Positions 2,284 through 5,336 of a DNA stretch of 64,000 nt are shown here, one piece after another. Both the position numbers and the translations under genes were made by a program. Origin of the DNA: Actinomadura spongiicola (GTDB lineage Bacteria; Actinomycetota; Actinomycetes; Streptosporangiales; Streptosporangiaceae); the NCBI RefSeq assembly GCF_003432485.1, contig NZ_QVNQ01000005.1:62001-126000 (forward strand). The letters run 5' to 3'. The notes beneath the pieces are model-generated. The model had not been told where the DNA came from, did no database searches, and saw only the letters and a list, made by a program, of their open reading frames with translations. Each line of letters begins with the position of its first letter. The stretch's first letter is position 1.

Positions 2284-3027
2284 GTGACGGTTACGGACGA
2301 AGCTCTCGACCACGCCCGACCCGGAGCCGACCGGGGCACCGACCCCGCCGGCGCCCGGGTCGCCGCGGCGTTGGCGCGTGACCTGGACACCGGGTTCGAG
2401 GCCCTCTACGAGGCGTACCGGGGCGCGGTGTTCTCCACGGCGCTGCGGCTGTGCGGGCGGTGGGCCGAGGCCGAGGACCTGTCCGCCGAGGCGTTCCTGC
2501 GCGCCTACCGGGCGTTGTGCGGGTACGGGCCGGAGCGGATCGCGGAGCTGCGCCCCAGGGCGTGGCTGCTGACGATCCTGACGAACGTGTGGCGCAACAG
2601 TCTGCGGACGGCGGCGCGGCGCCCCCCACCCGGCCCGCTGGAGGACGCCCCGGACCCGCCGGACCCGGGCGAGGAGGTGGAGGACACCGCCACCCGCCAC
2701 GAGACGGGCCGGGAACTGGCCGGGCTGCTCGCCGAACTCCCCCACGCCCAGCGCGCCGCGGTGGTGCTCCGCCACGTCACCGACCTGCCCGTCGCGGAGA
2801 TCGCCACGGTGCTGAGCCTGCCCGAAGGCACCGTCAAGTCGCACATCTCCCGGGGCCTGGCACGACTACGGGCCCTGCGCACCGAACAGCGCACCGAACA
2901 ACACACCGAACAACACATTGAACAGCGCACCGAACAGCGCACCGAACGGCGCACCACACCACTCCGCCCCGACCCCGGCGCCGATCCGGGTTCGGGGCGT
3001 TTCGACCAGCGAGGGGGTACCCGATGA
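2284..3027 (+). CDS. ECF-type RNA polymerase sigma factor
   Basis: Region 2 spans about residues 38-80 (FEALYEAYRGAVFSTALRL, then a DLSAEAFLRAYRAL helix). Region 4 spans about 150-200 (LPHAQRAAVVLRHV, then EGTVKSHISRGLARLRAL). The last ~45 residues are unusual: a charged stretch built from a 12-bp DNA repeat encoding TEQRTEQHTEQ-like units, then a Pro/Asp/Gly tail. No anti-sigma gene with membrane segments follows. Instead the gene overlaps by 4 bp (ATGA) an O6-alkylguanine transferase with an Ada-type zinc domain. I infer that the partner protein senses DNA alkylation and that the pair forms a damage-response module. The GTG start has no strong ribosome-binding site. Confidence 0.9.
   Translation: MTVTDEALDHARPGADRGTDPAGARVAAALARDLDTGFEALYEAYRGAVFSTALRLCGRWAEAEDLSAEAFLRAYRALCGYGPERIAELRPRAWLLTILTNVWRNSLRTAARRPPPGPLEDAPDPPDPGEEVEDTATRHETGRELAGLLAELPHAQRAAVVLRHVTDLPVAEIATVLSLPEGTVKSHISRGLARLRALRTEQRTEQHTEQHIEQRTEQRTERRTTPLRPDPGADPGSGRFDQRGGTR
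2881..2952 (+). repeat. Six tandem 12-bp units inside the sigma gene
   Basis: Units begin at 2881, 2893, 2905, 2917, 2929 and 2941, with core ACCGAAC (ATTGAAC in the fourth). The repeat is in frame and encodes a Thr-Glu-Gln-rich tail, so copy-number change would lengthen or shorten the protein by four residues without a frameshift. Confidence 0.9.
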
Positions 3028-3863
3028 ACCGCACCGACCCCGCCCACGGGGCACCCGACCCCCTGGCCGGGGAGCCCACCGATGAGCTGACGACTGAACT
3101 GGCAGGTGAGCTGGCGGGTGAGCTGGCGGGTGAGCTGGCAGGGTTGGCGGCCGACGCTCCCCCGTCCCTGCTGGACCGCATCGCGGCGCGGCGCGTCCAC
3201 GTCGCCGGGCCGCTGGAGGGGCTGCAGGTCGCGTTCACCGACCACGGTGTCGCCTACCTGCGCGCCGGGATGGACGACGAGGAGTTCGCCGCATCGTTCC
3301 GGGCCCGGTTCGCGCGTCCGCTGCTGCCCGCGTCCCGCCCGCCCGCCGGGCTGGTGCCGGCGCTGCGCGGCGGGCGGCTCGGCGGGCTGCGGCTGGACCT
3401 GCGCGGCCTCAGCGACTTCGAGGCGGCCGTGCTGCGCGCCGCGGCCCGGATTCCGCGGGGGCAGACCCGCCCGTACGCGTGGGTGGCGCGGGCGGCGGGA
3501 CGGCCGCGGGCGGTCCGCGCGGTGGGGTCGGCGCTGGGCCGCAACCCCGTCCCGCTGCTGATCCCGTGCCACCGCGTCACCCGCTCGGACGGGACGCTCG
3601 GCGACTACGTGTTCGGCGCGGCCGCCAAGGAGCGGCTGCTGCGCGCCGAGAACGTCGACGTCGAGGAGGTCGTGGACCTGGCGCGGCGCGGGGTGCGGCT
3701 GGTGGGCAGCGACACCACCGGCGTCGTGTGCTACCCGACGTGCGGGGACGCGCGGCGGATCACCCCCGGGCACCGGCGCGGGTTCCGGGATCTGGCCGCC
3801 GCGCGTGCCGCCGGGTATCGGCCGTGCCTGCACTGCCGGCCCGGCGACGCCACCCCCACCTGA
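3024..3863 (+). CDS. O6-alkylguanine-DNA alkyltransferase fused to a C-terminal Ada zinc domain
   Basis: Suicide DNA-repair protein. The Ogt/AGT catalytic domain covers about residues 125-215, with the active-site motif PCHRV (Cys182) and a preceding PRGQTRPYAWVA segment. After it comes an Ada-type metal-binding domain (about 228-275) with Cys236-x3-Cys240 and Cys268-x2-Cys271 and the motif YRPCLHCRP. This is the ligand pattern of the E. coli Ada N-terminal methylphosphotriester domain, but here at the opposite end, and no AraC helix-turn-helix is present. The first ~45 residues contain four ELAG repeats. Translationally coupled to the ECF sigma gene. Repair activity is well supported; a sensing role toward the sigma factor is inference. 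Confidence 0.9.
   Translation: MNRTDPAHGAPDPLAGEPTDELTTELAGELAGELAGELAGLAADAPPSLLDRIAARRVHVAGPLEGLQVAFTDHGVAYLRAGMDDEEFAASFRARFARPLLPASRPPAGLVPALRGGRLGGLRLDLRGLSDFEAAVLRAAARIPRGQTRPYAWVARAAGRPRAVRAVGSALGRNPVPLLIPCHRVTRSDGTLGDYVFGAAAKERLLRAENVDVEEVVDLARRGVRLVGSDTTGVVCYPTCGDARRITPGHRRGFRDLAAARAAGYRPCLHCRPGDATPT
3084..3143 (+). repeat. Five tandem 12-bp units at the start of the alkyltransferase gene
   Basis: GAGCTGGCGGGT-type units begin at 3084, 3096, 3108, 3120 and 3132 and encode ELAG repeats in the poorly conserved N-terminus. The repeat has the same 12-bp period as the unrelated repeat near the end of the sigma gene. Confidence 0.85.
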
Positions 3864-4259
3864 CGTCCCGCCCCGATCCCGACCCGCCGTCGGGAGACGC
3901 GCTCCGGTGCACGGCGGCGAAGGCCCGGCGGGCGCGGGACGAGGAGCGGACCGCGTTCGCCGCGCCGGCCCGCTACGGCGCACCGCGTCCCAGGACATCC
4001 GGATCGGCGCGGTGTTCCGGCCCGGGAGACCCGGGATGCCCGCCCGGCCCGAGGCCTGGGCGTCCCGGCCGTTTTCGAGATGCCCGGGCCGCGATGGGCG
4101 TTCGCCTGGCGTCCGGTTCCGGTTCGGGGCCGCACATCCCGGCCTCGGCCCGGCCGGGGTCCGGGGATCGACCGGGATGTGCGGGCCGTGGTGGGCATAT
4201 ATCGGCGTGTGGGGGGAATGGGGCGGTCCCGTGGGTGGTCCGACGAAGGGGAGGGTGAC
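3864..4259. other. Intergenic region upstream of the epimerase gene
   Basis: No convincing coding region on either strand. The last part holds a relatively AT-rich stretch (GCATATATCGG near 4195-4205) that could be a -10 region, and a ribosome-binding site GGGGAGG about 8 bp before the ATG at 4260. Confidence 0.5.
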
Positions 4260-5336
4260 ATGCGCGTCGTCGTCACCGGCGCCACCGGGAACATCGGAAC
4301 CAACACGGTCCGCGCGCTCGCCGCGGACCCGTCGGTGACCGCGATCACCGGTCTGGCGCGCCGCCGACCCGACCCGGACGGCGGGTCGGAGGGCGGCGGG
4401 AAGGTCGAGTGGGTCGAGGCGGACGTCACCGACAGCGACCTGGTCCCGGTGATGCGCGGCGCGGACGTCGTGGTGCACCTGGCGTGGTTGTTCCAGCCCA
4501 CGCACCGCCCGGCGGTGACCTGGGACGCCAACGTCGTCGGCAGCTCCCGCGTGTTCGACGCCGCCGCGCGGGCGGGGGTGTCCGCGCTGGTGTACTCCTC
4601 GTCGATCGGGGCGTACTCGCCGGGCCCCAAGGACCGTCCGGTGGACGAGTCGTGGCCCACGCACGGGTGGCCGGGCGCCGCCTACAGCCGTGAGAAGGCC
4701 TATGTCGAACGGCTCCTGGACGCCTTCGAGTCGGCGAACCCGGAGTGCCGGGTCGTGCGGCTGCGTCCCGGGTTCATCTTCGAGCGGCAGTCCGCGTCGC
4801 AGCAGCGGCGCCTGTTCGCCGGGCCGTTGCTGCCCGGCCGTCTCGTCCGCCCCGGGGCGATCCCCGTGGTGCCGGACCTGCCGGGGCTGCGGTTGCAGGC
4901 CCTGCACTCGGCCGACGCGGGTGAGGCGTTCCGGCTCGCCGTCACCGGCGGTGTGTCCGGGGAGGCCCGCGGCGCGTTCAACATCGCCGCCGAGCCGGTG
5001 CTGGACGCCGCCGAGCTCGCCGACATCCTCGGCGCCCGCACCGTCCGTGTCCCGGTGCGGGGGGTGCGCGCCGCGCTGGCGGCCGCGTGGACGCTGCACC
5101 TGGTTCCCGCGTCCCCGGGCCTGTTCGACCTGGTCCTGCAGGTCCCCTTGATGGACACCGCCCGGGCCCGTGACGTGCTCGGCTGGGCGCCGCGGCACAC
5201 CGCCCGGGAGGCGATCACCGAGTTTCTGGAGGGTCTGCGGACCGGAGCCGGGCGCGGCACCCCGCCGCTGTCCCCCGGAACCGGTGGGCCGGGCCGGGTC
5301 GGCGAGTTCGCCACCGGTGTCGGCCGCCGCCCCTGA
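4260..5336 (+). CDS. NAD-dependent epimerase/dehydratase family protein (extended SDR)
   Basis: Rossmann nucleotide-binding motif TGATGNIGT at residues 7-15, an Asp in VEADVTD, and the catalytic pair Ser (YSSSIGAYS) and Tyr-x3-Lys (AYSREKAYVERL). A 358-residue protein of the atypical or extended SDR class acting on a nucleotide sugar or another NAD(P)-linked substrate. The ATG at 4260 follows a GGGGAGG ribosome-binding site. The last ~30 residues are Gly/Pro-rich and probably disordered. The substrate cannot be read from sequence. Neighbours give no pathway hint; the small gene downstream lies 48 bp away and has its own ribosome-binding site. Confidence 0.88.
   Translation: MRVVVTGATGNIGTNTVRALAADPSVTAITGLARRRPDPDGGSEGGGKVEWVEADVTDSDLVPVMRGADVVVHLAWLFQPTHRPAVTWDANVVGSSRVFDAAARAGVSALVYSSSIGAYSPGPKDRPVDESWPTHGWPGAAYSREKAYVERLLDAFESANPECRVVRLRPGFIFERQSASQQRRLFAGPLLPGRLVRPGAIPVVPDLPGLRLQALHSADAGEAFRLAVTGGVSGEARGAFNIAAEPVLDAAELADILGARTVRVPVRGVRAALAAAWTLHLVPASPGLFDLVLQVPLMDTARARDVLGWAPRHTAREAITEFLEGLRTGAGRGTPPLSPGTGGPGRVGEFATGVGRRP

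Follow-up and report, generated by a model that had tools for sequence, protein, structure and literature searches.

What might a DNA alkyltransferase, whose two alkyl-accepting domains stand in the reverse of the order found in E. coli Ada, be doing when it is translated together with an ECF sigma factor? This question is raised by a gene pair of Actinomadura spongiicola, located near the start of the 64,000-nucleotide stretch of DNA that was analysed (the window; contig NZ_QVNQ01000005.1, positions 62,001 to 126,000, forward strand). The alkyltransferase, here called Ogt-Zn, carries an Ogt domain followed by an Ada-type zinc domain, and the features of the pair are as follows.

2250–2275, + strand: predicted sigma-specific promoter, matched in the scan of its own genome; same motif in 66/76 sigma-Ogt locus entries
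2284–3027, + strand: ECF sigma factor gene (247 aa, GTG start; Pfam Sigma70_r2 and Sigma70_r4_2), with a homologous sigma upstream in 46/47 reversed Ogt-Zn loci
3024–3863, + strand: Ogt-Zn alkyltransferase gene (279 aa), in ATGA overlap with the sigma gene
3081–3179, + strand: N-terminal extension of Ogt-Zn, residues 20–52 (AlphaFold helices, residue conservation), the proposed sigma contact
3180–3659, + strand: O6-alkylguanine-DNA alkyltransferase fold, residues 53–212 (Z 16.7 to 1sfe), with the nucleophile Cys182 at 3567–3569
3663–3848, + strand: Ada-type zinc/methylphosphotriester domain, residues 214–275 (Pfam Ada_Zn_binding; Z 7.9 to 1u8b)
3729–3731, 3741–3743, 3825–3827 and 3834–3836, + strand: zinc-site cysteines Cys236 (predicted methyl acceptor), Cys240, Cys268 and Cys271

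The 4-bp overlap of the two genes, which had been pointed out in an earlier note on this DNA, is confirmed in the window, and the same overlap of sigma stop and ogt start is exact in 58 of 76 pairs. According to Pfam, the sigma protein contains Sigma70_r2 at 41–113 (E 3e-15) and Sigma70_r4_2 at 144–195 (E 5e-15) and has no region 3, that is to say, it consists of sigma2 and sigma4 only, as an ECF sigma factor does. Short tandem repeats occur in both proteins, as TEQ/TEQR units at the sigma C-terminus (window 2880–2955) and as ELAG units at the Ogt-Zn N-terminus (window 3099–3140), and neither is conserved in relatives. Upstream of the pair, a histidine kinase and a LuxR-type response regulator are encoded at 68–2202; the LuxR-type regulator is retained upstream in several Actinomadura loci, not beyond the genus, and a GC-rich inverted repeat (about 2223–2248) lies between the response regulator and the sigma promoter.

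In Ogt-Zn, Pfam places DNA_binding_1 at 131–211 (E 1e-28) and Ada_Zn_binding at 225–273 (E 6e-10, profile positions 17–64 of 65). The AlphaFold model has a mean pLDDT of 92.5; since its residues 53–212 resemble the C-domain of E. coli Ada and residues 214–275 resemble methylated N-Ada, the order is Ogt and then Zn, and the reversal of the Ada domain order proposed in the earlier note is borne out by Pfam positions and structure alike. The complete Ogt active site with PCHRV and Cys182 is present as described, in the form known from Ogt/MGMT proteins with its Asn, Arg-finger, Tyr and Glu partners, and C182, H183, R184, N174, R165, Y151 and E209 are invariant in 45/45 proteins. The zinc site likewise has the Ada-type arrangement Cys-x3-Cys...Cys-x2-Cys, with the spacing x3/x27/x2 that had been read from the sequence; all four cysteines are found in 42/45 proteins, two of the others being without the domain and one having Tyr at 268. 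These domain features are well above chance and conserved. In a by-eye alignment, Phe197 apparently stands where E. coli Ada has the bulky Trp that confines it to small alkyl groups (PMC10779285). The statement that no HTH exists is correct for the AraC type, no HTH_18 or AraC match being given by Pfam up to E 1; the Ogt domain retains its own DNA-binding fold. No HTH family is matched by Pfam, and the B-box HTH plus RLHD combination of Cada2 is thus not found; a Class I anti-sigma domain (ASDI/zf-HC2) is absent from the Pfam results, and HxxxCxxC is absent from the sequence.

Rarity of the pair would have spoken against the idea of a functional unit, and the opposite is observed. In a family survey of 201 genomes, all full-length relatives adjoin a homologous sigma gene; L027 is a degenerate locus and L029 a lone zinc domain. 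The latter, at G090:C427, carries the linker of the pair protein and appears to be what is left of such a protein, both Ogt and sigma being absent. A wider scan for Ogt-then-Zn proteins in 84,980 species genomes found them in the actinobacterial genera Actinomadura, Nonomuraea, Streptosporangium, Thermobifida, Pseudonocardia, Actinokineospora and Actinomycetospora, and furthermore in Acidimicrobiia, Chloroflexota/Thermomicrobiota, Dormiibacterota, Acidobacteriota, Vulcanimicrobiota (WPS-2) and Methylomirabilota. Among reversed loci with upstream sequence, the sigma gene is immediately upstream in 46 of 47, including one (L082) whose sigma is partial at a contig end, so that gene pair and domain order are conserved over several phyla. 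The single exception is L080 of Methylomirabilota, where the reversed-order Ogt-Zn (3968–4675) has no sigma nearby and is without the conserved N-terminal extension. A sigma partner was found in none of about 19 classical Zn-then-Ogt loci, mostly from sphingomonads.

In the tree, nearly all sigma-paired Ogts belong to one supported clade (97/86, 68 rows), and outside it are two gp22 Acidobacteria rows and the L028/L030 type. The zinc domain is missing from the sigma-paired Ogts of L023–L026, L068, L081 and L086; two Zn-less members are located at the base of the clade, and in L023–L026 and L068 the absence looks like a later loss. L028 and L030 represent a second, distant Zn-less sigma-Ogt pairing with ATGA overlap, belonging to another Ogt clade and having another sigma and different upstream sequence, and sigma-Ogt coupling may have had two independent origins. 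In G052 (L006/L143), the sigma gene is without sigma2, and its start and sigma4 remnant are in frame with Ogt-Zn, owing to an apparent in-frame deletion or an assembly artefact; this arrangement was considered as a Rosetta-stone fusion and rejected, as it resembles a deletion of sigma2.

Which promoters the sigma factor might use is suggested by the sequence before its own gene. In the window, a −35 element GCAAC (2250–2254) and a −10 element GTGTT (2271–2275) are separated by a 16-nt spacer, and the GTG start of the sigma gene follows only 8 nt after GTGTT, so the mRNA may be leaderless. The class GCAAC-N16-G(T/G)GTT (accepted variants: −35 GCAAC or TGTAAC, −10 G(T/G)GTT or ACGTT) is present upstream of sigma in 66 of 76 locus entries, a few of which are one locus from two collections, compared with 41 of 15000 Markov shuffles. 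Among the motif-bearing loci the spacer is 16 in 61 and 15 in 5, while spacer sequences are unrelated between loci. This layout is that of actinobacterial ECF promoters, and the sigma operon is therefore probably autoregulated. An interpretation of the −35 GCAA as an Ada/Cada2 B-box was set aside, the fixed 16-nt spacing and the starts 8–10 nt after GTGTT fitting a promoter.

The same motif was searched in genomes as GCAACSN13YGGKGTT, with the reversed pattern as control. In 25 pair genomes there are about 70 motif sites versus 5 controls, and in 25 pair-less genomes 29 versus 6, with 9 of the 29 belonging to the G184 repeat family. The G184 repeat, GCAACG(C/G)(T/C)TGG...CGGGGTT, mimics the promoter at nine sites (C4, C5, C7, C11, C38, C42, C46) in a pair-less genome. 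A second, stand-alone ogt is directly downstream of the motif in G000, G199, G132, G175, G025 and G123; Oxygenase-NA follows it in G186, G167 (twice) and G025, an SDR starting MDL-L-GRVA-VTGASKGIGLAV in G000, G199, G132, G175, G101, G170, G123 and G056, and EamA permeases in G000, G175, G086 and G132. MFS permeases, SnoaL proteins and FAD monooxygenases are also found downstream, and the Ogt, Oxygenase-NA, SDR, EamA and SnoaL assignments were confirmed by Pfam. In Pseudonocardia, sigma and Ogt-Zn are followed by alkB and a motif-preceded ogt at L053, and a divergent ogt bears the motif at L048; in an acidimicrobial MAG (L056) alkB starts 7 nt past Ogt-Zn, that is, alkB is found just 3′ of the pair in two distant lineages. 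The motif sites at L113, L117, L154, L180, L181, L190, L194 and L195, like that before nuoK in L192/L193, lack a plausible target gene and probably arose by chance.

Co-occurrence was examined in 25 genomes of the genus, in which ogt2 (the second ogt) and the pair were searched independently. The motif lies at most 330 nt upstream of ogt2 in 15/17 pair genomes (G202 included) versus 1/5 pair-less ones (Fisher p 0.009), or in 16/17 versus 1/5 (Fisher p 0.003) with inclusion of the G132 site, which lies 405 nt upstream, and the SDR gene is present in 14/17 versus 1/8 (Fisher p 0.002), these p-values being optimistic since loci and same-genus genomes are related and not independent. In 13 of the 14 pair genomes having the SDR gene, the motif is 49–72 nt before its start. 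G208 is the single pair-less genome to retain the motif before ogt2 together with the SDR gene; its assembly is in 420 contigs, and the pair may have been lost or may be missing from the assembly. On the whole, the predicted targets point to alkylation repair, and an alkylation response controlled by the ECF sigma can be inferred from the sequences. The proposal of the earlier note that a dedicated sigma serves alkylation damage is well supported in this respect, by the conserved pair, by the putative promoter of its own and by the occurrence of this motif before other alkylation-repair genes. With SDR, permeases and SnoaL proteins in the predicted regulon, the response may in nature be triggered by a broader class of electrophiles.

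As for the link between Ogt-Zn and sigma, the N-terminus of Ogt-Zn is modelled by AlphaFold as a helix at 20–40 and a short helix at 47–53, and sigma-paired Ogts have 32 or more residues ahead of the Ogt fold. The motif L-x2-L...AP-x2-L is found in 66/76 sigma-paired Ogts versus 1/28 unpaired ones (2.7 percent of shuffles), and L38, L41 and P46 are each present in at least 42/45 sequences. This motif tracks sigma pairing, whereas the zinc domain does not, and in the sole reversed Ogt-Zn without sigma (L080, where the sigma was lost or never present) the motif is also missing. As sigma-paired members can do without the zinc domain but not without the extension, it is the extension that would contact sigma; and because some sigma-paired Ogts lack the zinc domain, sensing could rest with the cysteine of the Ogt domain, with that of the zinc domain or with both. 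Class I anti-sigma factors bind sigma2 through a fourth helix, which is attached by a flexible linker (PMC7406223), and by this analogy a contact through the Ogt-Zn extension is plausible. No third conserved gene stands beside the pair, no Pfam family exceeding 5 of the 89 flanking genes, and none of the 25 families listed for the neighbours is an anti-sigma family.

The best explanation, which we consider fairly probable, is an alkylation-damage response run by the ECF sigma, with the co-translated Ogt-Zn as its most likely sensor. The sigma would guide RNA polymerase to the GCAAC-N16-G(T/G)GTT promoters of its own operon (sigma and Ogt-Zn), a separate ogt, AlkB-type or Oxygenase-NA dioxygenases, the SDR reductase, permeases and SnoaL-type proteins. 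Unmodified Ogt-Zn would hold sigma, probably via the sigma-linked N-terminal helix, and would let it go on irreversibly accepting a methyl group at Cys236 (from phosphotriesters), at Cys182 (from O6-alkylguanine) or at both; once the lesions vanish, newly made unmethylated Ogt-Zn would turn the response off. More tentatively, and with our judgement close to balanced, Ogt-Zn may be a methyl-counting anti-sigma, which sets the dedicated sigma free by methylating itself irreversibly at a suicide cysteine. Holding and release of sigma are suggested by the gene coupling, by the sigma-linked helix and by the lack of other conserved neighbours, and the methylated PCHR cysteine that turns on Caulobacter Cada2 is a precedent for an Ogt-cysteine switch (PMC10957082); another precedent is methylated Ada, which acts with the sigma subunit of RNA polymerase (PMC4437013). 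The interpretation given in the earlier note is, as a whole, partly supported.

A different view can be taken of Ogt-Zn, namely that the sigma runs an alkylation or electrophile regulon in which Ogt-Zn is just one of the repair effectors, sigma activity being controlled otherwise, through transcriptional input, through proteolysis or by a regulator at a distance. It agrees with the fact that the other ogt genes of the predicted regulon are not regulators and that no anti-sigma domain is recognised in Ogt-Zn. However, translational coupling to sigma across phyla is unique to this Ogt, the sigma-linked extension is confined to it, no alternative conserved neighbour is present, and a conserved self-promoter of the sigma would run away with no negative partner; we regard this view as rather unlikely. 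Alternatively, Ogt-Zn could be a positive partner, whose Cys236-methylated form binds DNA or the holoenzyme like methylated Ada and aids sigma at its promoters. Methylated Ada and Cada2 are both activators (PMC4437013, PMC10957082), and the zinc domain resembles that of the methylated N-Ada/DNA complex; but the AraC, B-box and RLHD DNA-reading domains are all absent, some sigma-paired members have no Zn, and no obvious second conserved site was seen by eye besides the two promoter elements, which makes such a role improbable.

It would be harder still to believe that sigma and ogt are adjacent with no functional link and that the motif represents a promoter of general actinobacterial type, even though ECF sigma genes are common in these genomes, as are ogt genes. 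The pair is kept across phyla, the motif spacing is fixed, motif sites are few per pair genome with near-zero controls, and alkylation-repair targets recur; conservation strongly disfavours this reading, to which we give almost no credence.

Compared with E. coli Ada and its adaptive response (ada, alkA, alkB, aidB), Ogt-Zn has both alkyl-acceptor domains and their cysteines in common, and both systems involve an autoregulated alkylation regulon, here a predicted one, with alkyltransferase and AlkB-type genes; the differences are the swapped domain order, the lack of an AraC HTH, the additional stretch at the N-terminus, and the use of an ECF sigma instead of a DNA-binding activator. In Bacillus subtilis, zinc and Ogt functions also serve the adaptive response, but AdaA and AdaB are separate proteins, and AdaA has an AraC HTH. 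Cada2 shares with Ogt-Zn a PCHR-type Ogt cysteine as a possible methylation-response switch (PMC10957082), whereas it binds DNA through HTH and RLHD domains and is without a zinc site; Ogt-Zn has neither DNA-binding domain, and its output would be the sigma. In RsrA/SigR and ChrR/sigmaE, cytoplasmic zinc anti-sigma factors with their ECF sigmas, as in the proposal here, a soluble sensor gene with cysteines and zinc lies beside an autoregulated ECF sigma gene, but Ogt-Zn has no ASD fold or HxxxCxxC, and its zinc site is of the Ada type, predicted to accept methyl groups and not to be a redox site. The same genome also contains a conventional Ada_Zn-AraC HTH protein of 495 aa (L031, G000 contig C1, 241–1728, − strand), so two adaptive systems may coexist; its C-terminal part appears AlkA-like on reading of the sequence, and the pattern scan found no sigma promoter motif at this locus.

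The pairing of a sigma with a methyltransferase is not new. It has been reported in the ECF122 passages of a review that ECF122 is among the sigmas without an anti-sigma and that the 6-O-methylguanine DNA methyltransferases in its conserved neighbourhood could regulate it (PMC8999054); the likeness to the window sigma is one of described neighbourhood, and those passages do not mention a zinc domain, promoter or regulon. A literature search for an ECF sigma alkylation regulon found nothing, and no account of the zinc domain, promoter or regulon was found, the primary ECF classification paper, which may cover the zinc domain or the promoter, lying outside the search. With a predicted promoter and predicted target genes now named, ECF122-type sigmas, which are catalogued as having an unknown mode of regulation, can be put to a direct test. 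The known alkylation adaptive responses (Ada, AdaA, Cada2) are built on DNA-binding activators, and a sigma coupled to a suicide alkyltransferase would be a different design with the same logic, in actinobacteria and other phyla; if true, the methyl-counting anti-sigma would add to Ada/AdaA and Cada2 a further adaptive-response design, one that extends across several phyla.
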